Below, piece after piece: positions 44,720-60,255 of a stretch of DNA of 64,000 nucleotides (position 1 is the stretch's first letter; every line of letters begins with the position of its first letter). A model generated the notes under the pieces. That model saw only the letters and a program-made list of their open reading frames with translations. It searched no databases and was not told the DNA's origin. The position numbers and the translations under genes are program-made. The stretch is from Georgenia satyanarayanai (lineage in GTDB: Bacteria; Actinomycetota; Actinomycetes; Actinomycetales; Actinomycetaceae), in assembly GCF_900116375.1 (NCBI RefSeq), contig NZ_UETB01000003.1:234890-298889 (forward strand), written 5' to 3'.

Positions 44720-45673
44720 CTAGTGCGCCGCCGGGCTCGGCAGCAGCGCCCTCACGCGGTCCGTCAGCTGCTCGACCAGGGTCGGCGCGAACGGTGGCCC
44801 CCACGGGACGCTCGCCGCGATGACCGGCACCCGGCCGGCGAGCGCCGCGGTGAGCGTGAGCTGCCGGCTCAGCACCTCCGGGTCGCGCCACCCGATGAGC
44901 CGGGGGAAGCCGGAGAGAGCGAGGACCGCGTCCGGGCCGCGCAGGCGTCGAACCTCCACCCGGTCCGTCGTGCGGCTGGGGAAGGGGATGATGAGGACGT
45001 CCAGCGGCAAGCGGTCCGCAGCGCCGTCACGGAGGCGGAGCACCTCTCGGTCGTCGGCGCTGCGCCGCACCTGCGGGGCCCCGTCGTCGAAACGCGCCAC
45101 GAGGCTGTCGGCACCCTTGCGCAGACGCAGCTCGGTCGCGCCGAGCCGGGCGACCGGACGGTCGGTGACGTCGTCGAGGCGAAGGACGTCGTCGGTGATC
45201 AGTGCGCCGCCGTCACCGCACAGCAGGGCGGCCATCGTCGACTTGCCCATCCCCGAGCGTCCGACGAAGCCCCAGGCGCTGCCTCCGACCTCGACGGCGC
45301 TGGCATGGAGCACCAGGTGGCCGCGCTGGTACAGCTGGAAGGCGAGGCTGGCGCCGGTCGTGAGGACGGAGGCCATCCCCTCGTCGCTCCCGTCGACGCT
45401 CCGAACCTCCATGCGGTCGAGGGCGGGCGAGACATGGACGTCGCAGGCCCCGAAGAACCGGAGGGTGAACCCGTTGTCGTGCCGGGTGAACGCGTAGACC
45501 GTCTGGGTGGCGCCGCCTGCCCGCAGGACCGTCTCGCCGGGCGGGAGCTCGGTGGTGGCACGGGTGGGGGCACCGCGCACGATGGTGACGTCCGGGACTG
45601 CACCGGGTGGTGCCGGCCGGTCCTGGTGGAGCTCGGTGTCGCTCGCGACGACCAGTCCGTAGAGCTCGAGCAT
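44720..45673 (-). CDS. HprK-like kinase of lasso locus 1
   Basis: A 317-residue protein of the HPr kinase-like group found in lasso-peptide clusters, where known members phosphorylate the C-terminal Ser of the precursor. It has Walker A GRSGMGKST (138-146), preceded by VLHASAVEVGG, and ends in VIAASVPWGPPFAP. It is clearly homologous along its length to the locus 2 kinase at 57141-58115 (LYGL-V-A-----LHQDRPAP near the start; HVPWGPPF/SVPWGPPF near the end). The start shares one base with the B2 stop (TGATG). The substrate is inferred: precursor 1 ends in Ser45. Confidence 0.82.
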   Translation of the reverse strand: MLELYGLVVASDTELHQDRPAPPGAVPDVTIVRGAPTRATTELPPGETVLRAGGATQTVYAFTRHDNGFTLRFFGACDVHVSPALDRMEVRSVDGSDEGMASVLTTGASLAFQLYQRGHLVLHASAVEVGGSAWGFVGRSGMGKSTMAALLCGDGGALITDDVLRLDDVTDRPVARLGATELRLRKGADSLVARFDDGAPQVRRSADDREVLRLRDGAADRLPLDVLIIPFPSRTTDRVEVRRLRGPDAVLALSGFPRLIGWRDPEVLSRQLTLTAALAGRVPVIAASVPWGPPFAPTLVEQLTDRVRALLPSPAAH

Positions 45674-46128
45674 CACGCGGCTCCTTCGCGTCGCGGGTCG
45701 ACGAGGCTCAGGTACGTCACCGGAGCCTCGGGGTCGAGGGTGCGGCCGTCGATCTCCAGCCAGGCGTGGGCCTTGACGACCCCGTCCGACTTCGTCACGC
45801 CGACCCGCAACGCCGGCCTGCGGTGGCGCAGGGCGTAGCCGGTCCCCAGGGCACGGCGCAGGCAGGTGTCCTCCCACGGCCAGTGCCGCAGGACGCGGCG
45901 CACCGCCCGGAGCGCGCGCCGCTCGTCGGCCGTGAGCCGGTCGGCGAACGGCTCGGTCGCGGCGTCGCCCGCGTCCGTGCTGAGGGGGACACCGAGCGAC
46001 GCGGCGAGCTCGGGCAGCGGCCGGCGGCGCACCGCCCACTCGATGCGCGCCTGGGCCACGAGCGCCGCGGCGACGGCGGCGTAGTCACGCAGCGTCCAGC
46101 TCCTCAGGATGCCGCCGACGGAGATCAT
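45673..46128 (-). CDS. lasso peptide leader protease B2 (transglutaminase-like)
   Basis: A 151-residue transglutaminase-fold cysteine protease that removes the leader of lasso precursors. The Cys-His-Asp triad is likely Cys89 (EDTCLRRALGTGYALRHR), His121 (KAHAWLEIDGR) and an Asp from the IDG or LDP segment. Its length is normal for a stand-alone B2. It starts within the cyclase stop (ATGA) and ends at the kinase start (TGATG). This is the only B2 in the window, so it probably also serves the precursor of locus 2, which has B1 but no B2. Confidence 0.9.
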   Translation of the reverse strand: MISVGGILRSWTLRDYAAVAAALVAQARIEWAVRRRPLPELAASLGVPLSTDAGDAATEPFADRLTADERRALRAVRRVLRHWPWEDTCLRRALGTGYALRHRRPALRVGVTKSDGVVKAHAWLEIDGRTLDPEAPVTYLSLVDPRREGAA

Positions 46129-47321
46129 CGCGCCGGCCCGTCGAGGGGCAGACCTTCGCTCGCCATCCACGCGGCCATGAGGGCGCTGTCGCTCCTGCCG
46201 ATGAAGTCCTCGTTCAACCAGGCCTCCCGCAGCAGCTCGGCGTCGACGTGCTCGAGGTCGAGCCCGGTGCCGGACCACTGCCGAGCGAAGGATCGTTCGA
46301 ACGGACCCATCCGGGCAGCGTTGAAGAACGACTTCGTCGACCGTCCCAGGATCGGCTCCGGCAGCACGTCGGCGAAGGCGTGGCGCATGGCGGCCGTCCG
46401 TCCGGTGAATCCCCAGCGCCCTCCTTCGTCGATCCAGGCGCTGACGAACTCCGGTGCCAGCAGGGGGTGGACGAGACGGATGTCGTAGTCACGCGCCACG
46501 AGGTCCATGTTGTGGTAGATGGCGCGTGCGAGCGGTCGCCGGATCGTCCTGCGGATGGACCGGTCCCACCGCAGTGGCTCGACGAAGTCCTCGGCGATCG
46601 CCTCGATGAACTGCTCCCGTGCGGGTCCGCGCAACCACGGAGCCACTCGGGCCCACGTCTCCTCCACCTCGGTGCGCACCTGCCGTCCACGCGGGAGCAA
46701 GGCCCGGGCGGCGTCACTCACGACGCGGAGCCGGGGGCGCTGCTTGCGCTGGATCGTGCGGCGCAGCCGTGCCACGGGCGCCGACCGCCGACCGATGAAC
46801 ATCTCGTCGCCGCCCTCGCCGGTCAGGAGGACGCCGCCACGGACCCGGTCGAACATCTCGTGCTGCAGGTTCAACGAGGGGGGCCAGACGAGGCCCCGCC
46901 GTGCCATGCTCTCCTGCGCGTTCTCACTGAGCAGCCGCTGCTGGCCGGTGATCGTCACGACGACCCGCTCGGTCACGCCGAGGTGCCGGAGGACGAGCTC
47001 CTGCCACTCGTCCTCGTTGGCTTCCGCGTTCCCGGGGTACCGGTACGTGATCGGCACGGGCAGCGGACGCCCGTGCTCACGTGCCACGGAGGTGGCGACG
47101 GCCAGCACGGCCGAGGAGTCACGGCCGCCGGAGAAGCTGACGAACACCGGTGTGGTGTCGATGATCGTCCTGAGCACGTCGCGCAGCGCGAGGCGGGCGC
47201 TGCCCGAGCTCGGTGGCAGCTGGACGTGCGGCAGGCCGTCGGCCGTCGCTGCCAGGGGGACGCCCATGACGATCTCGCGAGGGCCAAGTCTCAGGTACTC
47301 CGTGGACCGCGTTGTCAGCAC
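46125..47321 (-). CDS. lasso peptide cyclase C1 (short asparagine synthetase-like)
   Basis: A 398-residue protein of the asparagine-synthetase ATP-pyrophosphatase fold, with PP-loop SGGRDSS at 64-70 and GEGGDEM. In lasso synthesis C activates an Asp or Glu side chain as the AMP ester and joins it to the core N-terminus. The N-terminal glutaminase-like domain of typical lasso cyclases (about 500-600 residues) is absent. GTG 47321 is chosen over ATG 47363: it has a GGGAG ribosome site with 7-base spacing, and its N-terminus aligns with that of the locus 2 cyclase, while the ATG has none. It lies downstream of the precursor, beyond a hairpin. Confidence 0.85.
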   Translation of the reverse strand: MLTTRSTEYLRLGPREIVMGVPLAATADGLPHVQLPPSSGSARLALRDVLRTIIDTTPVFVSFSGGRDSSAVLAVATSVAREHGRPLPVPITYRYPGNAEANEDEWQELVLRHLGVTERVVVTITGQQRLLSENAQESMARRGLVWPPSLNLQHEMFDRVRGGVLLTGEGGDEMFIGRRSAPVARLRRTIQRKQRPRLRVVSDAARALLPRGRQVRTEVEETWARVAPWLRGPAREQFIEAIAEDFVEPLRWDRSIRRTIRRPLARAIYHNMDLVARDYDIRLVHPLLAPEFVSAWIDEGGRWGFTGRTAAMRHAFADVLPEPILGRSTKSFFNAARMGPFERSFARQWSGTGLDLEHVDAELLREAWLNEDFIGRSDSALMAAWMASEGLPLDGPAR

Positions 47322-47366
47322 TGCTGTTCTCCCGCCCGGCTCGTGAGGTCCTTGCTCCTTCATGGT

Positions 47367-47399
47367 TGAGGGAGGGGCCGGGTACCGGCCCCTCCCTCA
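47367..47399 (-). terminator. hairpin between precursor 1 and cyclase 1
   Basis: A perfect 15-bp stem with a 3-nt loop starts 10 bases after the precursor stop. It has no U-tract. It may stabilise the precursor mRNA or attenuate transcription, so that precursor exceeds enzyme. Locus 2 has a hairpin in the same place. Confidence 0.75.
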
Positions 47400-47408
47400 G
47401 ACCGTCGG

Positions 47409-47546
47409 TCAGGAGCCGACCGGCGGCTGGTCCGGCTTGTCGCCGAACTTGAACAGCCAGACCTGGTCGTCCCTGCCGTGACCCGTCAGTGCGAGCGTGA
47501 GCTCGGGCACTGAGCCGACCTCAGTGATGCGCGGAGATGTGTACAT
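47409..47546 (-). CDS. lasso peptide precursor A1
   Basis: A 45-residue RiPP precursor. The leader has the lasso pattern YxxP-x-[LI]-xxx-G-x-[FV]-xxx-T-x: Tyr2, Pro5, Ile7, Gly11, Val13, Thr17. Thr17 at -2 puts the core at Ala19-Ser45 (27 residues). Acidic residues at core positions 8 and 9 (Asp26, Asp27) are in the right place for macrolactam closure with Ala1. Alignment with precursor 2 favours Asp26. The tail carries Trp30-Leu-Phe32 as possible steric plugs and ends KPDQPPVGS, with a C-terminal Ser suited to kinase modification. ATG 47546 has an AAGGGA ribosome site. An N-terminal Ala instead of Gly is uncommon but known. Confidence 0.88.
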   Translation of the reverse strand: MYTSPRITEVGSVPELTLALTGHGRDDQVWLFKFGDKPDQPPVGS

Positions 47547-47582
47547 GCGGATTCCCTTCGTCGTCGGTGGAGGTGGTGCTCC

Positions 47583-47611
47583 GTCAGTGGAGTAACTGCG
47601 GCGGTTGTCAA
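47583..47611 (-). promoter_or_regulatory. possible promoter of lasso locus 1
   Basis: Perfect -35 TTGACA on the minus strand (47611-47606). The 17-bp-spaced -10 (ACTGAC, 47588-47583) is poor. CTAACTTGACA upstream could instead supply a -10. It lies 37-65 bp before the precursor start in a 238-bp gap that otherwise shows no gene. Confidence 0.35.
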
Positions 47612-47784
47612 GTTAGCGCAGCACCACCTGCCGACCGCGGGTCACGAACGGGTGAATCGCCGACCCCGCAGGGGTGAGACCGCCCGGGGAGGTGAGGGCG
47701 CAGTGAGCATGGTCGGCACCGGGTCGGGCACCGGGCGCGCCGTCACCGGGAGCGCCGTCTCGGGGCGCGTGGGGCTCCGGGCCG

Positions 47785-48516
47785 TCAGCCGGGCGTGCTC
47801 GTCCGCTCGTCGCAGTCGCGGCGGTCCTGCCGCCCCTCGGTGACCTCACCCTCCGACGGGGCCACGAAGTCCGGGTCCAGGACGTCGAGACTCTCCGGGA
47901 GCTTGCTGCCGAACCGCCGGTGCACCCACCGCAGGGCGGCGTCCACGACGAACCCGATGAGGACTCCACCGGTGACACCGGCGGCGATCGCGATGAGCGG
48001 GTGGTCGTGGAGGAAGACTCCGGCACCGATCCCGAGGGCCGTGGAGTAGCCGCCCCACACGATCGCCGCGATCGCGGCGATGAGGACGAACCGGGCGCGG
48101 GGGAAGCCGACCGCACCGGCCGTCATGTTGACCGCCACGCGCCCGATCGGGACGAACCGGGCGGAGAGGATGAGCACGGTGCCCCGCTGGGCGAGGGCAC
48201 GCCTGGCCCAGGCGAGGCTCGCCCGGCCGCGTCTGCCCTGGAAGATGCGCAGCCGGTCGATCGGGACCCTGCTGCCGATCGTGTACGCGATGACGTCGCC
48301 GGTGAAGGCACCGACCGCGGCGACCAGGATGAGCAGCCACAGGTTGGGGCCGTCGCCCGTCATCGCGAGGACGGCGACGCCGATGACGATCGACTCGCTC
48401 GGCACCGGCGGGAAGAACCCGTCGACGGTCGCCAGGACGAGGACGGCGACGAGCAGCCACGGGGAGTCGGCCATGCCGAGGACCCACGACTCGATCGCCG
48501 CCATGGCCGCCGTCAT
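47785..48516 (-). CDS. DedA-family membrane protein
   Basis: A 243-residue DedA/VTT protein with about five helices. Typical elements: PPVPSESIVIGVAVLA (re-entrant loop with Pro and Glu), GAFTGDVIAYTIGSRV, and RFVPIGRVAVNMTAGAVGFPRARF, whose Arg is conserved. Family members act as phospholipid or undecaprenyl-phosphate flippases and in membrane homeostasis. The C-terminus is acidic and cytoplasmic. ATG 48516 has no good ribosome site; ATG 48504 is possible. It lies between lasso locus 1 and glmM. Confidence 0.9.
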   Translation of the reverse strand: MTAAMAAIESWVLGMADSPWLLVAVLVLATVDGFFPPVPSESIVIGVAVLAMTGDGPNLWLLILVAAVGAFTGDVIAYTIGSRVPIDRLRIFQGRRGRASLAWARRALAQRGTVLILSARFVPIGRVAVNMTAGAVGFPRARFVLIAAIAAIVWGGYSTALGIGAGVFLHDHPLIAIAAGVTGGVLIGFVVDAALRWVHRRFGSKLPESLDVLDPDFVAPSEGEVTEGRQDRRDCDERTSTPG

Positions 48517-48599
48517 CGGGCACCGGTTCGCGTCACCGGACCATTAGACCTTGCCGGGCACCCCGGTGTCACCGGGGATGCCCCTGACGGACCCCTGAG

Positions 48600-49952
48600 T
48601 CAGCCCAGCGCGAGTCGCGTGCGCACGACGTCCGCGAGCTCCGCGGCGACGGCGTCGGCCTCCTCCTGGGTCGCGGCCTCGACCATGACGCGCACGAGCG
48701 CCTCGGTCCCCGAGGGGCGGAGCAGCACACGGCCGGTGTCACCGAGGCGCTGCTCGGCGGCGGCGACCGCGTCGCGCAGCCCCTCGTCGGTCCCGGCACG
48801 GGCCTTGTCGACGTCGGGGACGTTGACGAGCGTCTGCGGCAGGCGGGTGACGATCGCGCCGAGCTCGGCCAGCGAGCGGCCCGTCTCGACCACCCGGGCG
48901 GCCAGGAGCAGCGCGGTGAGGAGGCCGTCGCCGGTGGTCGCGTGGTCGCTGGCGATGATGTGGCCGGACTGCTCCCCGCCGAGGCTGAAGCCGCCGGCGC
49001 GCATCGCCTCGAGGACGTAGCGGTCCCCGACCGCCGTCTGGACGGTGCGGATCCCGGCGTCCCGCATGGCGAGGAGGAGCCCGAGGTTGCTCATCACGGT
49101 GACGACGAGGGTGTCCTCGGCGAGCCGGCCCTGCTCCTTGAACGCGGTGGCGAGCACCCCCATGATCTGGTCGCCGTCGACGATCGTGCCCTCGTGGTCG
49201 ACCGCGATGCAGCGGTCGGCGTCGCCGTCGAAGGCGACGCCCATGGCCGCGCCGGAGGCGACGGTGACCGCCTGGAGCTGCTCGGGGTGGGTGGAGCCGC
49301 AGTCGTCGTTGATGTTGCGGCCGTCGGGCGAGGCGTTGATGACGACGACGTCGGCGCCCGCCTCGCGCAGCGCGAGGGGCGCGATGTCGCTGGCCGCGCC
49401 GTTGGCGCAGTCGATGGCGATGCGCAGAGCCTCCAGCGGCCGGCCGGTCGCGGCGACGAGGTGGTCGATGTAGGTGCGGTCCGCGGCGCGCGCGTCCTCC
49501 TCGATGCGGCCCACGCCGTCGGCGACCGGGCGGTCCCACGCGGCGCCGAGGCTCGCCTCGATGGCGTCCTCGATGGCGTCCTCGAGCTTGAAGCCGCCGT
49601 GGGCGAAGAACTTGATGCCGTTGTCGGGCATGGGGTTGTGCGAGGCGGAGATGACGACGCCGAGGTCGACGTCCGTCGTCGCCGTGAGGTGGGCCACGCC
49701 CGGGGTGGGCAGCACGCCGACCTCGACGACGTCAACGCCCGCGCTCGTGAGCCCGGCGGCCAGCGCGGCGGAGAGGAAGTCCCCGGAGATTCGGGTGTCA
49801 CGGCCGATGACGGCGCGGGGACGGCGTCCCTCCGCGCCCGCGGTGGCGGTGAGGACCCGTGCCGCTGCCGCACCGAGGCCGAGGGCCAGCTCGGCGGAGA
49901 TGTCTCGGTTGGCGAGTCCGCGCACACCGTCGGTTCCGAACAGTCGGGGCAT
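48600..49952 (-). CDS. glmM: phosphoglucosamine mutase
   Basis: Converts glucosamine-6-P to glucosamine-1-P. The 450 residues have the four-domain hexose phosphomutase layout: active-site phosphoserine in [16 protein letters not shown] (about Ser104), metal-binding DGDADRC, GGEQSGH (sugar binding) and [14 protein letters not shown] (phosphate binding). ATG 49952 has an AAGGAA ribosome site. It lies downstream of rplM-rpsI on the same strand, as in many actinobacteria. Confidence 0.97.
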
Positions 49953-50116
49953 GGGATTCCTTCGTCTCGAGGCCTGGGGGCCGAGGGCCCCGACCCATGG
50001 TGCCAGAGGACCACACCCCCGCCACCCGCCCACGTGGTGAGTTGGGCGACGTTCGCGGCGCTCCCGGCGTCGTGCGACGCACCGGGTGCGACCTTCGGGG
50101 GACGGTGCAGAAACGC

Positions 50117-50148
50117 GGAACGGCCCCGCCGGTCGACGGGGCCGTTCC
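50117..50148 (-). terminator. terminator after rpsI
   Basis: GGAACGGCCCCG (50117-50128) and CGGGGCCGTTCC (50137-50148) form a 12-bp stem 13 bp after the rpsI stop. It separates rplM-rpsI from glmM. Confidence 0.8.
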
Positions 50149-50161
50149 ACTCAGCGCTGGA

Positions 50162-50653
50162 TCAGCGCTTGGAGTACTGCGGGGCCTTGCGGGCCTTCTT
50201 GAGGCCGGCCTTCTTGCGCTCGACGGCGCGGGCGTCGCGGGTGAGGAACCCGGCCTTCTTCAGCGCCGGACGGTTCGACTCGGAGTCGATCTCGTTGAGC
50301 GCGCGGGCAACGCCCAGGCGCAGCGCACCGGCCTGGCCGGAGATGCCGCCGCCGTGGATCCGCGCGACGACGTCGAAGCGGCCGTCGATGTCGAGCAGCG
50401 TGAACGGCGAGCTCACCAGCTGCTGGTGGAGCTTGTTGGGGAAGTAGTCCTCCAGCGAGCGACCGTTGATGGTCCACTGGCCCGTCCCGGGGACGAGTCG
50501 GACGCGCGCAACCGCTTCCTTGCGGCGGCCGAGCGCCTGACCCGGGGCGGTGAGGCTCTGACCGGCACCCGCGGCGGGTGCGTCGGTCTCGGTGGTGTAG
50601 CTGCTGGGGACGTTCTCGTCGTCCAGCTCGATCTCGGGAGTGGTCTCAGCCAC
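50162..50653 (-). CDS. rpsI: 30S ribosomal protein S9
   Basis: A 163-residue S9 with an actinobacterial N-terminal extension of about 35 acidic, Ala/Thr-rich residues before [16 protein letters not shown]. The body includes [19 protein letters not shown] and the C-terminal tail ends QYSKR, which reaches the P-site tRNA. GTG 50653 has a GAGGAG ribosome site. It follows rplM by 44 bp. Confidence 0.97.
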
Positions 50654-50697
50654 AGTTCTCCTCGTGTCCTGGTGAGAGGCTGCCGCGTCCTTGCGGA

Positions 50698-51141
50698 CTA
50701 CTGGGCAACCTGGGTGATCTCGAAGGCCTGCGGCTGCTGCGCGGCGTGGGGGTGCTCCGGGCCTGCGTAGACCTTGAGCTTCTTGAGCTGCTCGCGGCCG
50801 AGGGTCGTCTTGGGCACCATGCCGCGGACAGCCTTCTCGATCGCACGCTCCGGGAAGCGCTCGAGGAGCTGGGCGTAGCTCGTGGCCTTGAGGCCGCCCG
50901 GGTAGCCCGAGTGGCGGTAGGCGAGCTTGTCATCGAGCTTGCTGCCGGTGAGGGCGACCTTCTCCGCGTTGATCACGATGACGAAGTCACCGTTGTCGAC
51001 GTGCGGTGCGAAGCTCGGCTTGTGCTTCCCACGGAGCAGGGTGGCGACGTGGGTCGCCAGTCGGCCGAGGACGACGTCGGTAGCGTCGATGACGTACCAG
51101 TTCTTCTCGACGTCGCCGGGCTTCGGTGTGTACGTGCGCAC
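50698..51141 (-). CDS. rplM: 50S ribosomal protein L13
   Basis: A 147-residue L13 starting [20 protein letters not shown], with [19 protein letters not shown] and [28 protein letters not shown] 51141 is the family start. A GAAGG site lies about ten bases upstream. It is transcribed with rpsI from the promoter at 51295-51324, giving a leader of about 147 nt that could hold autoregulation. Confidence 0.97.
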
Positions 51142-51294
51142 GGGCGTAGCCTTCGTTTCTCTGTCGTCGGGCGGCGTCGTGCGCGTTGGCGCATGGGCCG
51201 TCCATGGTCTGGTGATGCTCGCTGCGCGCATCCGCGCCGCTGCGCCGGCGAGTGGGAGCACCGGGGAGCGCAAAGGGATGCACAACGACATCCA

Positions 51295-51324
51295 AGAGTA
51301 CCGCCGCCCGCCGCGCTGGGTCAA
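51295..51324 (-). promoter_or_regulatory. rplM-rpsI promoter
   Basis: Minus strand -35 TTGACC (51324-51319), 18-bp spacer, -10 TACTCT (51300-51295). Confidence 0.7.
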
Positions 51325-51364
51325 AGGCGGCGGACGGCGACCTGAGTGAGACGTGCCACCCGGG

Positions 51365-51829
51365 TCAGCCGGGCGTGCCGCCCTCCCCGGTGAGCCCGAT
51401 GGGGTCGTCCTCCTCGCGGACGCGCATCGCGGCCTCCTCGGCCGTGGCGGCGCCACCGGCGACGCCGACGTCCTCGGCCACCATGTCCTGCTCGCGCTCG
51501 CCGAGCGGTCCGGCGGCCTCCTCGGACACGGCCTCGATGCGCCCGGCGCGGTCCGGCTCGCGGTGCGCCTCGGGCTGCTGCGGCTCCTGCCAGACCTCGG
51601 GCTCCTCCTGGTCGAGCCGCTCGGTGATCGTGTCGCCCTCGATCTGCTCCGCCTGGGTGAGGTTCTTGCCGCGGAGCGGGTCGCGGTCCAGCGGGACGTA
51701 GCCCTCGTCCATGACGTCGTCGACGCCGCGCTGCTCGAGGGTGTCCTCCTGGGGCAGCTTGTCCGTGTCGCCCTCGCCGGGCAGCGACGGGTCCGGGCTG
51801 GTTGCTGGGGTGTCTCCTGGCTCGGTCAT
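51365..51829 (-). CDS. DUF5709 protein
   Basis: A 154-residue acidic, hydrophilic and probably largely disordered actinobacterial protein. Recognisable family segments are [23 protein letters not shown] and [24 protein letters not shown] in part, and the C-terminal [20 protein letters not shown]. There are no membrane segments. Function is unknown. ATG 51829 has a GGGAGG ribosome site. It lies downstream of truA on the same strand. Confidence 0.8.
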
Positions 51830-51878
51830 GCCTCCCAGGCTGCCACCGCCCTCCGGGGGGCGCACGAGGAAGGTCCGG

Positions 51879-52769
51879 CTACCGCGCCGGCAGGGTGCGC
51901 ACGTTACGAGCCTGCGCCGCCCGGGTGGCGAGCGCCTCGTCGGCGGGGTAGCCGACCTCCTCGAGGGTGAGACCGTGGGCGGCGACGACGGCGACACCCG
52001 GGTCACGGCGGCGGGCGGCGAGGACCGCGGCGGGCCAGTCCACCGGCCGGCGCCCCTCCCCGACGGCGAGGCTCGCCCCGACGAGCGCGCGCACCATCGA
52101 GTGGCAGAAGGCGTCCGCGCGGACGGTGGCGACGACGAGGCCGTCGGTCCGTCGCTCCCAGCGCAGCTCCTCGAGGGTACGGATGGTCGTGGCGCCCTCA
52201 CGGGGCTTGCAGTACGCCGCGAAGTCGTGCTCCCCGCGCAGCCACTGGGCGGCGACGTCCATGGCCGCGACGTCGAGCTCGCGCCCGTGCCACAGGACGT
52301 CGCGCCGCCGCAGCGGGTCACGTGCGGCGGGCGCGTCCGCCACCCGGTAGGCGTAACGCCGCCACACCGCGGAGAACCTGGCGTCGAAGCCGGGCGGCGC
52401 CACGCGCACGCGGTGGACGACGACGTCACCCGCCCCGCGGGGGCGCGCGTCCCGGCCGAGGACGCCGGCGAGCCGGGAGACGAGTGCCTCCTCCGGCGGA
52501 CGGTCGCTGCGCCCGGGCACCGTCCGCCAGGCGGTGAGCGGCACGTCCAGGTGGGCGACCTGGCCGCGCGCGTGGACGCCGGCGTCGGTGCGTCCGGCGA
52601 CCGTCAGCCGAGCGGGCACCCCCAGGCGCAGGACCGTGGTGAGCGCGTCCTCCAGGGTTCCCTGGACCGTGCGCAGACCGGGCTGGGTGGCCCACCCGGC
52701 GAAGTCCGTGCCGTCGTAGCCGAGGTCCAGCCGCAGCCGGACCGTCTCGTCGTCGGGGGCAGCGCTCAC
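51879..52769 (-). CDS. truA: tRNA pseudouridine(38-40) synthase
   Basis: Isomerises U38-U40 in the anticodon stem. The 296 residues include [22 protein letters not shown], the catalytic Asp in [18 protein letters not shown], and [25 protein letters not shown] 52769 has a TAGCCT -10 seven bases upstream, so the mRNA is probably leaderless. Only 27 bp separate it from the divergent ROK kinase start. In many actinobacteria truA follows rplQ directly; here lasso locus 2 lies between them. Confidence 0.96.
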
Positions 52770-52776
52770 GTCTCGC

Positions 52777-52789
52777 AGGCTAGTACCGT
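52777..52789. promoter_or_regulatory. back-to-back -10 elements of truA and the ROK gene
   Basis: TAGCCT (minus, 52782-52777) and TACCGT (plus, 52784-52789) are separated by one base, each 7 bases from its start codon, in a 27-bp divergent gap. The -35 contacts for each gene must lie inside the other's start region. Confidence 0.6.
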
Positions 52790-52796
52790 CGCGCGG

Positions 52797-53594
52797 GTGG
52801 ACCCACTGAGCACCGCAGGCCGCGGCCCGACCACCCTCGCCGTCGACTGCGGCGGCGGCGGGATCAAGGCCTCGGTGCTCGACGCCGCCGGCACGATGCA
52901 CGCCCAGCCGGTCCGGGCGGCCACGCCCTACCCGCTGCCCCCGCAGCGGCTCGTCGACACGATCCGGTCCCTGGCCGGGCAGCTGCCTCCCGCCGAGCGC
53001 GCCACCGTGGGGATGCCGGGGATGATCCGGCACGGCGTCGTCGTCACCACCCCGCACTACGTCACGCGCGCCGGGCCGCGGACCAAGGTGCTGCCCGACC
53101 TCGTCGCGGCGTGGGAGAACCTCGACCTCCAGGAGACCCTCAGTGCCGGGCTCGGCGTGCCGGTGCTCCTCCTCAACGACGCCGAGGTCCACGGTGCGGG
53201 TGTGGTCGCCGGGGCGGGCCTCGAGCTCGTCGTCACGCTCGGCACGGGCCTGGGCAACGCCCTGTTCGACGGCGGCCGGCTCGCCCCGCACCTGGAGCTC
53301 TCGCGCGCGCAGGCCCGGTGGGGGCTGACCTACGACGAGTACATCGGCGAGCACGAGCGGCTGCGGCTCGGGGACGCGATGTGGTCGCGGCGGGTGCGGC
53401 AGGTCGTCGACTCGCTGCGTCCGGTGGTGCTGTGGGACCGGCTCTACCTCGGGGGCGGCAACTCCCGTCGCATCACCGCGACGACCCTCGACCGCCTGGG
53501 CGACGACGTCGTCATCGTCCCCAACAGCGCGGGGATCGTCGGCGGGGTCCGTGCCTGGGAGCTCGGCGGGATCACGCCGAGCGGGCCGTCCTGA
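52797..53594 (+). CDS. ROK-family sugar kinase
   Basis: A 265-residue ASKHA kinase similar to polyphosphate/ATP glucokinases. [19 protein letters not shown] is the phosphate-1 motif, [13 protein letters not shown] carries the catalytic Asp region, and [16 protein letters not shown] is phosphate-2. The canonical ROK zinc motif (CxCGxxGC) is absent, as in polyphosphate glucokinases. GTG 52797 has TACCGT seven bases upstream and is probably leaderless. The 3' end overlaps the convergent hydrolase gene by 23 bp. Confidence 0.85.
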
Positions 53595-54312
53595 CCGAGC
53601 CGGGCGCGACCTCCTCGACGAGGTCCAGCACGATCCGGTTGAACTCCGCGGGCCGCACGAGCGAGACGAGGTGCGTGGCCCCGGGCACGATGTCGAGGCG
53701 CCCGTCGCGGCAGGCGGCGAGGAAGCGGCGCTCCTCGGTCCGGAAGTGGTCCCAGCGACCGTTGACGAGGCGCACCGGTGCGTCGATGGCGCGCAGGTCG
53801 GCGATCGGGTCCAGACCCCCGACCGCCGCGAGGGCTGCGTCCATGACGCCGAGCTCCATGCCGCCCTCGTGGAGGTCCGCGAGTGCCGCGGGCGGCAGCG
53901 CCACTCGCGCGAGGGTGTCGTTGAGCCGGCGTCCGCCGTCGGGCAGCCTGGCGATGAGCGCGGCGACCCGTCGGTACGCGGCCAGGCCCGGGCCGCGCGG
54001 ACGGGTGGAGCACCCCGCCGCCAGCACCCCGACGACGCGCTGCTCGGTCCGCGCCGCCCAGTGCAGGGTGAGGTAACCGCCGAGAGACAGGCCCACGACG
54101 ACGACGGCGCCCCCCGCCGAGCGGGCCGCCTCCTCCACCGCGGCCCGGGCGCCGTCGAGGGTGAAGGTCTCTCCCGCGCGCTCGCCGTGGCCGGGCAGGT
54201 CCGGGGCGAGGGCCGCCACCCCGGCCTCCTCGAGCGCGGCGAGCTGGGGGCGCCACATCGTGCGGGAGGCGCGGATGCCGTGGACGAGGAGGACCGTCAC
54301 AGCAGCGGTCAC
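53572..54312 (-). CDS. alpha/beta hydrolase
   Basis: A 246-residue alpha/beta-fold hydrolase: [17 protein letters not shown] (oxyanion region), nucleophile elbow [14 protein letters not shown] near the acid residue, and a late His ([10 protein letters not shown]). The substrate is unknown. GTG 54312 overlaps the stop of the lasso-associated nucleotidyltransferase gene (GTGA), so the two are cotranslated. A role in the lasso locus is possible but not shown, since known lasso isopeptidases are much larger proteins. Confidence 0.82.
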
Positions 54313-55442
54313 GGCGCCCTCCGTCCGCCGGCGGGGACCGGGGCGCCGGCCTCGACGGCGGCGAGGTAGGACTCGAGGGCCGCAGTCCCGGCGGTCGTGC
54401 GCACGGGCGCCGCGGACGGCGCGGGCCGCAGGCGGTCCACGACGCCCTGGCCGGCGTTACGGGCGACCTGCGTGAGGGTGCGGGCCGCACCGCGGCCGAC
54501 CGCGCGGGCGACGAGACGGGAGACCGAGGCGTCCTGCTGGAGCCGCGCCACGGGCGAGAGGCGGTCGACGGCGTCGAGCAGGAGCCGCTGGGGCCGGGAG
54601 GTGCCGAGCAGGTCGTGCACGCGCGCCGGCACCGGCGTGCCGAGCGTGGCCGTCGCCCGGCGCAGCGCCAGGGCCACCTGCGGCTGCGCGCCCCACTCCG
54701 CGGCCCGAGCGGCCACCGGCGTCCAGTCCTGGACCTGGCGCGCGAGCTGGTCGACGTCGACCATCCAGCCCAACCTGTTGGCGCCCGCGAGCGCCGCGTG
54801 GAGGCACACGTGGACGAGGGTGTCCGCCTCGTCCATCGTCCACGCCTGGCCCAGCCCGACGCCCACGCGGCGTCGGCGCCCGAGGATGTCCTCGGTCGAG
54901 ACGGTGAACTGCCGCCGCCGCGCCTGGGTGTTGATCATCGCCCAGTGGAGGTCCACCTGGATGCCGGCCGGCGTGAACCAGTGCATCTCCCCCGGCGTCT
55001 GGGGGTTGCGCAGCATGTCCTCGTAGTCGCCCACCCGCCAGCCGGCCCCGAGGAGGACCTCGCTCACCGCGCGCAGCGTGTGCGGCGCGACGAGGAGGTC
55101 GAGGTCGCCGTAGGGGCGCAGGCCGGGCACCGGGTGGGCGAGCTGCGAGAGCACCGGCCCCTTGAAGACCACCCAGGGGACGTCCCCGAGCAGCTGCCCC
55201 ACCTGCCCGAGCAGCATCGTGGCGCGGATGTGGAGCGACTTGGCGCCCTCCCGGTCGGGCCGCAGCACCTCGGCGACCGCCGGCGCGGCCTCGCGCAGCC
55301 GCACGTGGGCGAGCGGGGAGACCCGGTGGTGGCGCACCGCCGCGACGACGGCGTCCGTGGGCAGGGGTGGGGCGGTGGCGATCTCGCCGCGGCACACCGC
55401 CACGAGGAGGTCTCCGACCGCGCGTCGGGTGCTGTGCTGCAT
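54309..55442 (-). CDS. nucleotidyltransferase-fold protein of lasso locus 2
   Basis: A 377-residue protein of the putative nucleotidyltransferase family (NTP_transf_5). VFKGPVLSQLAHPVPGLRPYGDLDLLV contains the GDxD-type metal motif; EMHWFTPAGIQVDLHW supplies a further Asp. Such proteins recur in RiPP clusters, including kinase-containing lasso clusters, where they may modify the peptide. It diverges from precursor A2. ATG 55442 has a GGAAGGA ribosome site. A TACGCT -10-like element lies at 55494-55489 on this strand. Confidence 0.78.
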   Translation of the reverse strand: MQHSTRRAVGDLLVAVCRGEIATAPPLPTDAVVAAVRHHRVSPLAHVRLREAAPAVAEVLRPDREGAKSLHIRATMLLGQVGQLLGDVPWVVFKGPVLSQLAHPVPGLRPYGDLDLLVAPHTLRAVSEVLLGAGWRVGDYEDMLRNPQTPGEMHWFTPAGIQVDLHWAMINTQARRRQFTVSTEDILGRRRRVGVGLGQAWTMDEADTLVHVCLHAALAGANRLGWMVDVDQLARQVQDWTPVAARAAEWGAQPQVALALRRATATLGTPVPARVHDLLGTSRPQRLLLDAVDRLSPVARLQQDASVSRLVARAVGRGAARTLTQVARNAGQGVVDRLRPAPSAAPVRTTAGTAALESYLAAVEAGAPVPAGGRRAP

Positions 55443-55570
55443 CGCCGTCCTTCCACACCGTCGCCCGTCGCGGCGGCCTGCTAGCGGGAGCGTAGCGACC
55501 GCGAGCCGCATCGGGAGGCGGTCCGGCTGAGTCGTGAGGGGTGAGGCACTGCGGGTGAGGACACCACCCG

Positions 55571-55582
55571 GGGTGATCACCC
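55571..55582. promoter_or_regulatory. 12-bp palindrome upstream of precursor A2
   Basis: Perfect palindrome GGGTGATCACCC in the 298-bp divergent region between the nucleotidyltransferase and precursor A2, about 55 bp upstream of the predicted A2 -10. Candidate operator. No regulator gene is in the locus. Confidence 0.4.
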
Positions 55583-55636
55583 GGGCGTCACCTCGGTTCC
55601 CGCCCCGAGGCGGTTCGCGCAGCGAAGGGCCGCGCC

Positions 55637-55642
55637 TAGGCT
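55637..55642 (+). promoter_or_regulatory. predicted -10 element of precursor A2
   Basis: TAGGCT, the same hexamer as at 7079. The -35 region (near 55614) is weak. The leader would be about 92 nt, ending in a strong GGAAGGAGGA ribosome site before ATG 55741. Confidence 0.45.
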
Positions 55643-55740
55643 CGGACCACGTCACCGGCGACCGTGCCCGCCGGGTGACAGGTCCCTCCTCCGGGGGGTC
55701 CTCCCTACGACAACCGCACATCCCTGGAAGGAGGACCACC

Positions 55741-55890
55741 ATGGCTTACGAAGCACCGCGGGTGACCGAGGTCGGCAGTGTCCACGGCCTGACCCTGGGC
55801 AGTCAGTTCCTCGCCGCCTACACGGACAACACCGTCTACTGGGGCGAGTGGAAGCCCAACCAGCCGGGCCCCGCACCGGGCTCTCGCTGA
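55741..55890 (+). CDS. lasso peptide precursor A2
   Basis: A 49-residue RiPP precursor whose leader matches that of precursor A1 in pattern and largely in sequence: Tyr3, Pro6, Val8, Gly12, Val14, Thr18, with the shared run PR[IV]TEVGSV followed by LTL. Thr18 at -2 puts the core at Gly20-Arg49 (30 residues). The first acidic residue is Asp29, core position 10, not 7-9. Leader removal one or two residues later (Ser21 or Gln22) would give a 9- or 8-residue ring. The tail has Tyr33-Trp34 and Trp37 as plug candidates and a Pro-rich end, with Ser48 penultimate. The ribosome site is very strong. Confidence 0.85.
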   Translation: MAYEAPRVTEVGSVHGLTLGSQFLAAYTDNTVYWGEWKPNQPGPAPGSR

Positions 55891-55903
55891 GTCCCCACAC
55901 ACA

Positions 55904-55944
55904 CTGCGGGCCGGGGTGACCGTCAGGGTCCGCCCGGCCCGCAG
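55904..55944 (+). terminator. hairpin between precursor A2 and cyclase 2
   Basis: CTGCGGGCCGGG (55904-55915) and CCCGGCCCGCAG (55933-55944), a 12-bp stem with a 17-nt loop starting 14 bases after the precursor stop. It mirrors the hairpin after precursor A1. Confidence 0.7.
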
Positions 55945-55974
55945 CGTCCTGTCCGGCCGACTCCCGAGGGACCC

Positions 55975-57144
55975 ATGACAGCACCGACCGCGAGGGCCGC
56001 GTTCGTCCCGCTCTCCGCGCAGGAGACCCTCCTCGCCCTCCCCCGGAGCCGCTCCACCGTGCCCGTCACCTCGGCGCCACGGCTGCCGACGAGGCAGGTG
56101 CTCGAGGAGATCCTCCTGACCGCACTGAGCACGACGCCGTGCTACGTCCTGTTCTCCGGGGGCCGCGACTCCTCAGCCCTCCTCGCCCTCGCCGTCCACG
56201 TGGCACGCCGTGAGGGACTGCCCGCACCCGTTCCCGTGACGGTGCGCCACCCCGCCGCCCCGGAGTCCGACGAGACGCGGTGGCAGGAGCTGGTCCTGGC
56301 TCACCTCCGCCTGCCCGGGCAGGTGGTCCTCGAGTTCGACGGCGAGCAGCGCCTGCTCGGGGAGGTCGCCCGGGCCGCCCTGCGCCGGCACGGTCCCGTG
56401 TGGCCCGAGGCCGTCCAGCTGCACGGGGCGGCCTACCGGCACCTGGAGCCGGGGGCCACGGTCGTCTCCGGCGAGGGCGGGGACATCCTCCTGGACGGTC
56501 ACCGGATGGGGAACCTCCGCGACGCCCTGACCCTGCGCCGACCCCGTCGCGCGTCGCTCCGTGGCGGGCTGCGTGCCGTCCGTCCGCGCGCCCTGGTACG
56601 CCGCGAGGTGCGCCGCTCCGGCGCGGCCCCGCCCTGGCTGCGGCCCGCCGCGGCGACGGAGTACCTGCGGGAGCTGGAGCACCTGGTGAGCGAACCGCTG
56701 CGCTGGGACGCCGCCACCCGCACGATCATGGCCTCCCGCGCCCCCGCGGTCTTCGCGGCGAACTTCGACGCCGCCATCACCGAGTACGGGCTGCTCCCGG
56801 TCACGCCCTTCAACGACCCGCGGGTCGCCGGGGCGATCGCCCGCCAGGCGGGCCCCCTCGGGTGGGGCGACCGCACGGCCATCTTCCGGCGACTGTTCCA
56901 CGACCTCCTGCCGGACGAGGTGCTGCGCCGCCGGTCCAAGGCCGCGTTCAACTCCACCCGCTGGGGGCCCGAGGAGCGAGCCTTCGCCCGCGGCTGGGAC
57001 GGCAGCGGGCTCGACCCCGCGTGGGTCGACGCCGAGGAGCTGCGCGCCGCGTGGCTGTCCGACCGCCACCACCCCAGCGCGGACTTCCTGCTCCACGTGG
57101 CCTGGGCACGTGCCGAGGGCATCGACCTGGGGGACTCACCGTGA
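55975..57144 (+). CDS. lasso peptide cyclase C2 (short asparagine synthetase-like)
   Basis: A 389-residue homologue of C1: PP-loop SGGRDSS at 61-67, WQELVLAHLRLP, GEGGDILL, LRWDAATRTIM and LRRRSKAAFNSTRWGP (the equivalent in C1 is GRSTKSFFNAARMGP). It too lacks the N-terminal glutaminase-like domain. It should form the isopeptide bond in peptide A2. ATG 55975 follows GAGGGA. The stop overlaps the kinase start (GTGA). It is the middle gene of an A2-C2-kinase unit. Confidence 0.85.
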   Translation: MTAPTARAAFVPLSAQETLLALPRSRSTVPVTSAPRLPTRQVLEEILLTALSTTPCYVLFSGGRDSSALLALAVHVARREGLPAPVPVTVRHPAAPESDETRWQELVLAHLRLPGQVVLEFDGEQRLLGEVARAALRRHGPVWPEAVQLHGAAYRHLEPGATVVSGEGGDILLDGHRMGNLRDALTLRRPRRASLRGGLRAVRPRALVRREVRRSGAAPPWLRPAAATEYLRELEHLVSEPLRWDAATRTIMASRAPAVFAANFDAAITEYGLLPVTPFNDPRVAGAIARQAGPLGWGDRTAIFRRLFHDLLPDEVLRRRSKAAFNSTRWGPEERAFARGWDGSGLDPAWVDAEELRAAWLSDRHHPSADFLLHVAWARAEGIDLGDSP

Positions 57145-58115
57145 GCGTTGCCGGCACGAGCGAGCCTCCCCAGCTCCTGTACGGGCTCACGGTCGCCGCG
57201 GACTTCCCCCTCCACCAGGACCGCCCCGCGCCCGCGGGAACCCCCGTCGACCTCACGGTCGTCGACGGCCCGCCCGTGCCGGCGACCGGTGAGACGCCGT
57301 CCGGGGAGGTCGTCCTCGACTTCGGCGAGCACCCGGACCGCTGGTACACGGCGGTCCGTCGCCCCGACGGCTCGGTGCTGCTCCGCGTGTACTCCGTGTG
57401 CGACATCGTCCTCAGCCCCGACCTCGCCGACGTCACCGTCCATCTCGCCGAGGGCGCCGACCCGGGCATGCGCGCCATCATGACCACCGGCACCCTCCTG
57501 GCCCTGCAGCTCTACCTGCGTGGCAACGCGGTGCTCCACGCGAGCGCCGTCGAGCAGGACGGCCGGGCGATCGCCTTCGTCGGGCACTCGGGCATGGGCA
57601 AGAGCACCCTCGCCGCACTCATGTGCTCCTCCGGTGCCCGGGTGGTGAGCGACGACGTCGTGCCCGTCGCCCCCGCGGACGGGGAGCCTCCCCTGGTCCC
57701 CCTCGGCGCGACCGAGCTGAGGCTGCGCCCGGGGGCCGAGGTGCTCGCGGCCGGCTTCGCCCCCGGCTCCTTCCGCCGCCGGGTCAGTGCCGACCAGCGG
57801 GTCGTCGTCGGCCTGGAGCCCCCGCCCGTCCCCGCCGTCCCCCTCGCCGCGGTCGTGCTGCCCCGCCCGAACCGGGAGGACCACCTGGGCATGGAGCTGC
57901 TCGACCCCAAGGCCGCCGTGTTCGCCCTCATGAGCTTCCCCCGGCTCATGGGCTGGCGGGACCCGGCCGTGCTCGGCCAGGTGCTCGCCCACACGTCATC
58001 GCTGGCCCGGACGGTGCCCGTGCTCGTCGCCCACGTGCCCTGGGGGCCGCCCTTCCGTGACGACGTCGCCGAGACGGTCTGGGCGGCGGTGGACCGCTAC
58101 TCCAGCCGGGTGTAG
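57141..58115 (+). CDS. HprK-like kinase of lasso locus 2
   Basis: A 324-residue homologue of the locus 1 kinase. Walker A is GHSGMGKST (148-156), preceded by VLHASAVEQDG. The C-terminal half contains MSFPRLMGWRDPAVLGQ and HVPWGPPF, matching the other kinase. It probably phosphorylates a Ser near the precursor C-terminus (Ser48 of A2). GTG 57141 overlaps the cyclase stop. It abuts the convergent exporter gene with no intervening base. Confidence 0.82.
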   Translation: MSVAGTSEPPQLLYGLTVAADFPLHQDRPAPAGTPVDLTVVDGPPVPATGETPSGEVVLDFGEHPDRWYTAVRRPDGSVLLRVYSVCDIVLSPDLADVTVHLAEGADPGMRAIMTTGTLLALQLYLRGNAVLHASAVEQDGRAIAFVGHSGMGKSTLAALMCSSGARVVSDDVVPVAPADGEPPLVPLGATELRLRPGAEVLAAGFAPGSFRRRVSADQRVVVGLEPPPVPAVPLAAVVLPRPNREDHLGMELLDPKAAVFALMSFPRLMGWRDPAVLGQVLAHTSSLARTVPVLVAHVPWGPPFRDDVAETVWAAVDRYSSRV

Positions 58116-59984
58116 TCAGGTCTGCGGCTCGGCGTCGAGGTAGGCGGCCGCCTGGAGACGGAACAGCTCGGCGTACCTGCCCTCCTGGGCCATGAGCGTC
58201 TCGTGGGAGCCGGCCTCGACCACCCGCCCCTCCTCGAGGACGTAGATGACGTCCGCCGCGCGGACCGAGGAGAAGCGGTGGGAGATGAAGACCGCGGTGC
58301 GCCCGGCCAGGACCTCGCGCAGCGACTCGTACAGCGCGCTCTCCGCCCGCGGGTCCAGCGCCGCCGTCGGCTCGTCGAGGATCATGAGCTGCGCGTCGCG
58401 GTGGAAGGCCCGCGCGATGGCGACCCGCTGCCACTGGCCGCCCGACAGGTCCCGCCCGCCCTTGAACATCCGGGAGAGGATCGTGTCGTAGCCCTCGGGC
58501 AGCGCGGAGAGGAACCCGTCCGCGCCCGCGCGGCGCGCGGCCGCGACCGTCCGCGCGTCCTCGACCTCGTCGTCGAAGCGGCCGACGGCGATATTCTCCC
58601 GGGCCGTGAAGGCGTAGCGGACGAAGTCCTGGAAGATGACCGCCACCCGTGCGCGGACCGACGACCGCGCGTACGAGCGGGTGTCGCGCCCGTCCCAGCG
58701 CACCGTGCCGCCGGTGGGGTCGTACAGGCCCGCGAGGATCTTGGCGAGCGTCGTCTTGCCCGAACCGTTCTCCCCGACGAGCGCGACGACCTGGCCGCGC
58801 CGGATCCGCAGGTCGACGCCGCGCAGCGCCTCGGTGCGGCCACCGGGGTAGCTGAAGCGGACGTCGTCGACCACGATCTCCTCGAAGCTCGCGGGCGCCT
58901 CCGCGCCCGCCTCGTCCTCGCGGGCAGCCGCCCCGAGCTCCATGAACTGGTCGACGTCCTGGAGGAACAGGCCCGCCTCGAAGATCGACTGCATGCCCTT
59001 GAGGAGGGCCTGCACCTGCCCCTGGAGCATCCGGATGGCCACGATGGCCGCACCGGCCTCAGCGACGGAGACGGCCCCGCGGCCGATGAGCCACACGAGG
59101 ACGAGCAGGGTGCCGGTCAGCACGGCGGCGGCGCCGAGGTTGCCGAGGACACTGAGGACGCTGCGCCTGCGCAGGTGGCGGGCGAGGTCGGTGAGGTAGC
59201 GCCCGTACAGCCCGTCGAAACGCCCGCGCAGCGGCCGACCGATGTCGAAGGCCCGGATCTCCTTGGCCTCGTCGCGGGTGGTGAGGAGGTAGCTGAGGTA
59301 CATGCGCTGGCGCTGCCGGGGCGTCTGGTCGACGGTGAAGCCGAACTCCAGCCGGCTCTCCCGCCGGTTGGTGAGGACCATCGGCAGCCCGCCGAGGAGC
59401 AGCAGCGGGAGCAGCACCGGGTGGATCCCGATGAGGACGACCCCCACGCCCACCGTCGCGGTGAGCCCGCCGACGATCCCGAGCAGGGCCTGCGTCACCT
59501 GGAACGGCCGGGTCGGGGCGGCGGCCTGCACGCGCTGCAGCCGGTCGTAGAAGAGGGGGGACTCGAAGTGCCGCAGCGAGACGCTGGTGGCGACGTCGAG
59601 GACGTCCTGGTAGGTCCGGCGGGCGACGGCCTCCCCGAGGTAGCGGCTGAGGTTGGCGCGCAGCGACCCGAGGAGGGCACTCAGGGCCATGAGCCCGGAC
59701 AGCGCGAGCGTCGCCAGCAGCAGGGCCTGCGGGACCCCACCACCGGGCCCCAGCCCGAGCACCGCGGAGAGGAAGGACTCGACGACGACCACCTGCCCGG
59801 CGAGGACGAGCGCCGAGAGCACCTGCACGAGGAGCAGCGCCACGAACAGCAGCCGTCCGGCGCTCCACACGAGCCGGGTCGACCGGCGCAGCAGCTGCCA
59901 CAGCCGCCCGGCGGAGCGTCGCTGGTTGCGGCTCTCGATGCGCAGGTCGAGGGGGTCGACCAGGGCTGGGGGCTCGTCGCTCAC
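58116..59984 (-). CDS. lasso peptide ABC exporter (D)
   Basis: A 622-residue full half-transporter likely to act as homodimer: six helices (about 35-330), then a nucleotide-binding domain with Walker A GENGSGKTT, Q-loop VIFQDFVRYAF, signature LSGGQWQRVAIARAF, Walker B LMILDEPTAALD and H-loop ISHRFSS, all intact. There is no C39 peptidase domain, as in other lasso exporters. It lies 19 bp downstream of the B1 gene on the same strand and convergent with the A2-C2-kinase unit. It is the only exporter near either locus, so it probably exports both peptides. Confidence 0.86.
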   Translation of the reverse strand: MSDEPPALVDPLDLRIESRNQRRSAGRLWQLLRRSTRLVWSAGRLLFVALLLVQVLSALVLAGQVVVVESFLSAVLGLGPGGGVPQALLLATLALSGLMALSALLGSLRANLSRYLGEAVARRTYQDVLDVATSVSLRHFESPLFYDRLQRVQAAAPTRPFQVTQALLGIVGGLTATVGVGVVLIGIHPVLLPLLLLGGLPMVLTNRRESRLEFGFTVDQTPRQRQRMYLSYLLTTRDEAKEIRAFDIGRPLRGRFDGLYGRYLTDLARHLRRRSVLSVLGNLGAAAVLTGTLLVLVWLIGRGAVSVAEAGAAIVAIRMLQGQVQALLKGMQSIFEAGLFLQDVDQFMELGAAAREDEAGAEAPASFEEIVVDDVRFSYPGGRTEALRGVDLRIRRGQVVALVGENGSGKTTLAKILAGLYDPTGGTVRWDGRDTRSYARSSVRARVAVIFQDFVRYAFTARENIAVGRFDDEVEDARTVAAARRAGADGFLSALPEGYDTILSRMFKGGRDLSGGQWQRVAIARAFHRDAQLMILDEPTAALDPRAESALYESLREVLAGRTAVFISHRFSSVRAADVIYVLEEGRVVEAGSHETLMAQEGRYAELFRLQAAAYLDAEPQT

Positions 59985-60003
59985 CGTGCTGCCCCGGCGC
60001 GGG

Positions 60004-60255
60004 TCACCGCAGCAGCCCCTTGGTGCGCAGGTCCGCCACGAACGCCGCCGCGTCCTGCTCCGCGGTCGGCCGGTCGATGTCGTACTCCGCGGTCAGCGCG
60101 TCGGTGAGCTCCTCGAGCGACCGGTCCTCGGTGAGGAGCTTGGCCAGGTGCGCGCCGGCCACGTTCGTCGTCAGGTACACCGACCGGGCGGTGTCGAGGA
60201 TGACGAGCTCGCCGTCGATCTCCTGCCAGGTGATGTCCTCGCTCCGCAGCTGCAC
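60004..60255 (-). CDS. lasso peptide leader-binding protein B1 (PqqD-like RRE)
   Basis: An 83-residue PqqD-like protein, the RiPP recognition element that binds the precursor leader and delivers it to B2 and C. The winged-helix pattern is visible: a beta-hairpin with ELVILDTARSVYLTTN, then helices AGAHLAKLLTEDRSLEELTDALTAEYD in part and AAAFVADLRTKGLL. GTG 60255 has a GAGGGAG ribosome site, and longer open frames upstream lack one. It is the only B1 in the window. Because precursor A1 has the same leader motif, it probably serves both loci. Confidence 0.88.
   Translation of the reverse strand: MQLRSEDITWQEIDGELVILDTARSVYLTTNVAGAHLAKLLTEDRSLEELTDALTAEYDIDRPTAEQDAAAFVADLRTKGLLR

Follow-up and report, generated by a model that had tools for sequence, protein, structure and literature searches.

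A lasso-peptide system divided between two operons of Georgenia satyanarayanai, probably joined by shared leader processing

The stretch of DNA analysed here, referred to as the window, comprises 64,000 nucleotides of Georgenia satyanarayanai (contig NZ_UETB01000003.1, positions 234,890 to 298,889 of the forward strand) and carries, in a single region, two lasso-peptide operons separated by 6.8 kb of housekeeping genes. Locus 1 is encoded on the minus strand in the order A1-C1-B2-K1 (precursor, cyclase, leader peptidase and kinase), and locus 2 contains a nucleotidyltransferase-like gene (NT, minus strand), A2, C2 and K2 (plus strand), and the genes of the exporter D and the leader-binding protein B1 (both minus strand). 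The best reading of this arrangement, and in our judgement a probable one, is that two lasso peptides would be made with a single shared B1/B2 leader-processing pair. The original prediction had described one system split over two complementary loci, and every gene is open where it had been placed; the coordinates of K1 were corrected to 44720–45673, K2 most likely starts at the GTG at 57141, and what had been called loci are to be understood as neighbouring operons.

Complementary gene content

The whole genome (3.9 Mb in 37 contigs, with a stated completeness of 100) was searched for the components of lasso biosynthesis. B2 occurs once, at locus 1 (45673..46128, minus strand), and a PqqD-type protein also occurs once, this being B1 of locus 2 (60004..60255, minus strand), even when matches up to E ≤ 10 are admitted. 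The only exporter of lasso type is D of locus 2 (58116..59984, minus strand), with 1317.6 bits against 178.7 for the next-best ABC protein, while cyclases, kinases (E ≤ 1e-10) and precursors (E ≤ 1) are each present in two copies. This genome-wide search found no further copy of B1, B2, the lasso-type exporter or a precursor. The original prediction was to fall with another B1 and exporter for locus 1, or another B2 for locus 2, elsewhere in the genome; the complementary gene content that it claimed stands as far as the genome itself is concerned. B1, B2 and C, which lasso biosynthesis demands, are thus all encoded in the genome; the usual, though not strictly defining, clustering of A, B1, B2 and C is not found, B2 lying in locus 1 and B1 in locus 2.

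All four near-complete congeners (G001, G002, G003 and G004) have a single complete locus at the rplQ site, consisting of NT, A, C, B2, K, D and B1, and in all four the coaA-dedA junction, the site of locus 1, is empty. The original prediction had named relatives with only one locus as a possible objection; such congeners do exist, but their locus is complete and they therefore do not refute sharing. A fifth congener (G005, 57% complete) was without a match to B2, and its cyclase match was weak. The Georgenia and Oceanitalea loci at rplQ-truA (L019, L020, L021 and L023) resemble locus 2 in that NT, A, C, K, D and B1 are orthologous, with position and order conserved, and differ from the window in that B2 is kept between C and K and locus 1 is absent. 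In three of these four loci, another precursor-like frame lies beyond NT; the window has none. This frame is intact in L019 and L021 and looks degraded in L020 (L020:6800, without a start codon and with the leader Tyr changed), so that precursors at this site seem to come and go.

Cyclase and B2 genes were also counted in 34 kinase-bearing genomes, which are not a random sample: the set consists of the genomes with kinase matches, minus four weak ones (G519, G692, G699 and G748) and plus G003, and does not include six kinase genomes found later or G877, which has two cyclases. The cyclase:B2 ratio is 1:1 in 28 genomes, 2:2 in G528, 1:2 in G513 and G601, 0:1 in G488 and 1:0 in G533, where the cyclase lies near a contig end. 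A ratio of 2:1 is found in one genome only, that of the window, and B2 is kept in 33 of the 34.

The way in which B2 is missing from locus 2 is visible at the junction of its neighbours, compared with four congeners. In these, the stop codon of C overlaps the likely start of B2 (GTGA) and the stop codon of B2 overlaps the start of K (ATGA); in locus 2, the stop codon of C2 overlaps the likely start of K2 (GTGA, 57141..57144, plus strand), and there is neither a remnant of B2 nor room for one between the two genes. Judged from these junctions, the absence of B2 is a scarless, overlap-preserving deletion, and an event as clean as this suits a locus that is still in use. B2 is cleanly absent from locus 2 in the sole genome whose locus 1 carries B2, which supports the original prediction.

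Precursors and origin of the two loci

Precursor A1 (47409..47546, minus strand) has a leader ending in YTSPRITEVGSVPELTL and the core ALTGHGRDDQVWLFKFGDKPDQPPVGS, and precursor A2 (55741..55890, plus strand) a leader ending in YEAPRVTEVGSVHGLTL and the core GSQFLAAYTDNTVYWGEWKPNQPGPAPGSR; both exceed the cut-off of 19 of the lasso leader model NF033521, with 21.9 and 23.5 bits, respectively. They were compared in a table of 41 precursors found by pattern, from which precursors that do not fit the pattern are missing and in which one row of L019 is shortened. The two leaders are compatible with the sharing that the original prediction had proposed. Both carry YxxP and not the WxxP motif of the paeninodin family proper, that of the Bacillota (accessible text of PMC13381572), and P-R follows in the leaders of 8/8 genus-group precursors, A1 and A2 included, against 0/33 of the others.

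The core of A1 has Thr at −2 and Asp at 8 and 9, as expected of a lasso precursor. Asp at 9 is present in 20/20 precursors of family f38 in the table, and the predicted ring of A1 is for this reason most likely Ala1-Asp9. An f38 precursor, L102 (core ALSGKGSADQILWIKFGDKPGGGGGIS), is also the closest match of A1 (56% identity; 62% and 49 bits in a second search), and the tail PPVGS of A1 resembles the PPVGSR of the genus. This mixed look, which concerns few residues, fits an adaptation to the resident B1 or a descent beside it. In A2 and in the six congener precursors of the table, the tenth residue after TL is the acceptor Asp and there is no Asp or Glu at 7–9, which would imply either a ring of ten residues or a leader cut shifted by one. 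Known lasso rings have 7–9 residues. Asp at 10 and not at 9 was noted in the window (55741–55890) and at L019:7012 and 8616, L020:8410, L021:6811 and 8417, and L023:8873, as well as at L027:13180, L092:11886 and L119:9589, which have Asp or Glu at position 7 too; the cyclases beside Asp-10 precursors form one clade (95/97).

The two precursors also differ at their ends. A1 ends in Ser, as phosphorylated lasso precursors do, and A2 ends in Ser-Arg, so that its Ser is the last residue but one. A terminal Ser, the residue reportedly phosphorylated by lasso kinases, is found in 33/33 precursors outside the genus group; unlike these, 6/7 locus-2-type precursors of the genus group end in Gly-Ser-Arg, and the seventh (L019) departs from this pattern. 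It may be that the extra Arg is removed or that it changes how the kinase is used. A promoter motif, GACAACCGC, was considered as shared upstream of A1 and A2 and was dropped, as its distances differ and it is not seen at most of the relatives' precursors.

With regard to their origin, the two loci are far apart. C1 (46125..47363, minus strand) and C2 (55975..57144, plus strand) are 40–41% identical, and K1 (44720..45673, minus strand) and K2 (57141..58115, plus strand) 48–49%, far below the 67–78% that C2 and K2 share with the genes of congeners that have no locus 1. C2 and K2 fall within the genus clade (100/100), and C1 and K1, which are 39–43% and 46–48% identical to the congener genes, fall outside it. 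The B2 proteins of the congeners likewise form one clade (98/99) and are 81–98% identical to one another; the B2 of the window is excluded from that clade and is 46–54% identical to its members, from which it most likely belongs to locus 1 and not to the old resident set. All trees were built without L028–L033 (other lasso types or no match), and a concatenated C-B2-K tree also without L106–L112; in the latter, locus 1 is the sister group of the genus locus-2 clade, on a long branch (93/91, not starred), and single-gene AU tests do not reject this position (p 0.07 for C, 0.23 for K and 0.25 for B2).

These values imply that any duplication is older than the sampled genus or that locus 1 was imported; locus 1 may be an old paralogue, from a stem duplication, or an import. 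A recent in-place duplication of a complete locus, followed by reciprocal loss of parts, would account for the complementary gene content, for the sister position in the concatenated tree and for the P-R and the PVGS near the C terminus that A1 shares with genus precursors; nonetheless, the identities within the pairs, the trees, the absence of locus 1 from 4/4 congeners and the closeness of A1 to an f38 precursor rule against it, and we regard it as very improbable. Of the duplication followed by complementary loss that had been proposed originally, what survives is the loss of B2 from locus 2; a simple duplication does not agree with the identities, and no loss of B1 or of the exporter from locus 1 was seen.

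Locus 2 has a further peculiarity in its DNA. The flanking DNA is mostly 85–98% identical to L019–L021, and the interval of approximately 54.3–60.4 kb mostly 65–85%, whereas L021 and L019 are near 87–92% identical to each other across the same genes. The synonymous distance to L021 is raised for NT, C2, K2 and D (0.51–0.63, against 0.31–0.32 for truA and dedA) and not for B1 (0.33). In a tree of C2, K2, D, NT and B1, for which eight outgroup loci were picked, the window branches outside the four congeners (87/93, not starred), and the housekeeping grouping with L019–L021 is weakly rejected (AU p 0.03). The raised synonymous distance and the drop in identity along the cassette point to allele replacement, such that the locus 2 of the window is probably a divergent allele swapped in by recombination from an unsampled relative, and the loss of B2 may have taken place there and not in the lineage of the window. 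An accelerated protein evolution of locus 2 after the loss of B2 is not needed, given that the synonymous distance is itself raised.

Proposed sharing of leader processing and its alternatives

The mechanism that we propose is as follows. B1 of locus 2 would bind the Y-x-x-P-R leaders of both precursors, B2 of locus 1 would cut both leaders after TL (that of A2 perhaps one residue later), and C1 and C2 would close the rings of A1 and A2, respectively; K1 and K2 would each phosphorylate their own precursor on a Ser that is its last residue or the neighbour of that residue, the phosphate may receive another group from NT, and D would export both peptides. Sharing of B1 is plausible because the leader specificity of actinobacterial lasso B1 proteins is described as relaxed (accessible text of PMC13381572). 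Historically, a resident complete locus would have gained a neighbouring A-C-B2-K operon, either an old paralogue or an import, after which the resident B2 would have become dispensable and been deleted; the present allele of locus 2 probably arrived by recombination, as described above.

A stronger claim, to which we give an even chance, is that the two operons form a reciprocally obligate system, in which neither can finish its peptide alone, one having the leader peptidase and the other the leader-binding protein and the exporter, and which arose when the presence of a satellite operon with precursor and cyclase allowed the complete resident locus to lose its peptidase. If this is true, one B1/B2 pair handles both the nine-residue ring of A1 and A2, with its acceptor at residue 10, and satellite A-C operons are a stage on the way. 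An example may be G877, from another genus of the same family, which was noticed in a search of 213 family genomes; six of these, counting that of the window, matched the cyclase at E ≤ 1e-20. A single contig of G877 carries two cyclases at a distance of 35 kb: one in a locus that also contains NT, A, K, B2 and B1 (L119), with no lasso-type exporter seen nearby, and the other in an orphan precursor-cyclase pair (L121:6169–7580), whose neighbours we take by eye to be mfd and a NeuD-like acyltransferase gene. Apart from L119, the 116-kb contig, to which this search was confined, gave no match to B1, B2, kinase or NT. In a tree without L107, L108, L109 and L111, the cyclase of the orphan pair groups weakly with C1 (83/67). 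G877 is thus possibly a second, one-sided case of sharing, and if its orphan pair relies on L119, such sharing in one direction would be a natural stage before the two-sided state of the window.

Two alternatives concern the fate of A2. It could be that A1 alone is made with the shared parts, A2 being dead or dying since the loss of B2 and locus 2 surviving because it supplies B1, the exporter and NT. In support of this, B2 is gone from locus 2 and the B2 of the window is far from the native type, one of the two precursor frames of a congener looks degraded in L020, which indicates that precursor decay happens, and the ratio of nonsynonymous to synonymous change (dN/dS) of C2 is on the upper side (0.35–0.40, against 0.31 for L021–L023). 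However, the genes of locus 2 are intact, with dN/dS of 0.23–0.40 against L021 and L023 (0.19–0.41 for the L021–L023 pair), the values for K2 (0.23–0.36, against 0.25), NT (0.31, against 0.30), D and B1 are not clearly raised, and A2, C2 and K2 retain their motifs and the stop-start overlap; a dead A2 is therefore unlikely. Somewhat less likely still is that locus 2 needs no B2, either because a host protease cuts the precursor or because cyclisation proceeds without this peptidase, which would make the operons less dependent on each other. According to the title of a paper (Zyubko, 2019), pseudomycoidin was produced without leader and leader peptidase, although that case also concerns an absent leader, and A2 has one. 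Unclustered proteases are known for lanthipeptides (accessible text of PMC8960859); against this, B2 is kept in 33/34 of the kinase-bearing genomes and, between C and K, in 4/4 congeners.

The shared use of one B1/B2 pair remains the reading that we prefer; the comparison of gene sets, from which it is inferred, speaks strongly for it, and several points weigh against it. The draft of 37 contigs could hide another B2 in spite of its stated completeness, and the B2 of the window, being divergent, may cut an A2-type leader poorly. Over the 17-residue leader, A1 is identical at 12/17 positions to several outside precursors and to genus precursors alike (BLOSUM 57–61 outside, against 55 for the genus), so that the P-R signal amounts to one residue. 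The intactness of locus 2 is no proof of use, the loss of B2 could be recent, and the long branches leave the placement of locus 1 uncertain. Finally, incomplete lasso clusters are common in a survey of rumen bacteria (accessible text of PMC7533575), and a missing B2 need not mean sharing.

Known systems and further features

The closest known systems are the paeninodin, pseudomycoidin and Bsf-type clusters, which have the same gene set as the window (A, B1, B2, C, D, an HprK-like kinase and a nucleotidyltransferase), with B1 and B2 separate. Paeninodin-type clusters also share with it the H, GKS and DD residues of the kinase and the conserved C-terminal Ser of the relatives' precursors; as far as the accessible text of PMC9266682 and PMC10368454 goes, they hold one set, whereas the window has two operons with two precursor-cyclase-kinase sets and a single B1, B2, D and NT. 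The PF14907 nucleotidyltransferase, present in some kinase-type clusters, is found in locus 2. The region of the window is accordingly a new form of the phosphorylated-type lasso cluster and not a new class. The supply of a step from outside the cluster is known for other ribosomal peptides, namely for the citrulassin PAD and the unclustered lanthipeptide proteases (PMC12971885 and PMC8960859, in their accessible parts), but there a distant tailoring enzyme or protease serves one cluster, and here dedicated core parts are divided reciprocally. A lasso system split in this way was not found in the open PMC literature searched, which is no proof that none is in print.

This division matters in several respects. 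Lasso clusters are, as a rule, discovered and refactored as units complete in themselves, and the distribution of the leader peptidase and its partner between clusters suggests that such parts can be pooled. The genome of the window constitutes a natural test of the promiscuity of B1 and B2 toward divergent leaders and cores, and illustrates clearly how a satellite operon may come to be tied to its host operon. It is also a warning that working clusters may be discarded when genome mining insists on A, B1, B2 and C together.

The family assignments on which the gene names are based are as follows. B2, a transglutaminase-like protein, matches PF13471 (3.6e-15) and NF033537, lasso_biosyn_B2 (1.5e-16), and keeps CLR, HAW and Asp; its ATG overlaps the stop codon of C1 (ATGA), and the ATG of K1 overlaps the stop codon of B2 by one base (TGATG). 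B1, a leader-binding protein of the RiPP recognition element (RRE) type, matches PF05402 (2.9e-16), scores under the cut-off of NF033530 and has TbiB1 and TfuB1 as relatives in PDB. NT (54309..55442, minus strand) matches PF14907 (1.1e-41), with orthologues in 4/4 congeners (72–75% identical). K1 and K2 give HprK-family matches under the curated cut-offs and, in alignment, carry the H, GKS(T) and DD of the lasso-kinase motif (H, K, D, D; accessible text of PMC9266682 and PMC10368454), K1 keeping H..GKST..DDV. A sequence search for solved structures at E 0.01 returned none for C1, B2 or K2, and tblastn against PLSDB gave no plasmid-borne relatives of C1.

As regards the neighbourhood, the genes around and between the operons are, from their open reading frames and their conservation in congeners, presumably coaA, dedA, glmM, rpsI, rplM, truA, rplQ and rpoA. 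The Asn-synthase-like cyclases C1 and C2 match PF00733 (1.9e-15 and 2.6e-16), and C1, a short form, keeps SGGRDSS. Cyclases of this type have 339–445 residues as extracted with at most 20 residues preceding the match, and of the 561 positions of the albusnodin-type cyclase model, C1 aligns only to those from 195 onwards; given this short length and late start, cyclases of the C1/C2 type seem to have no N-terminal glutaminase-like domain.

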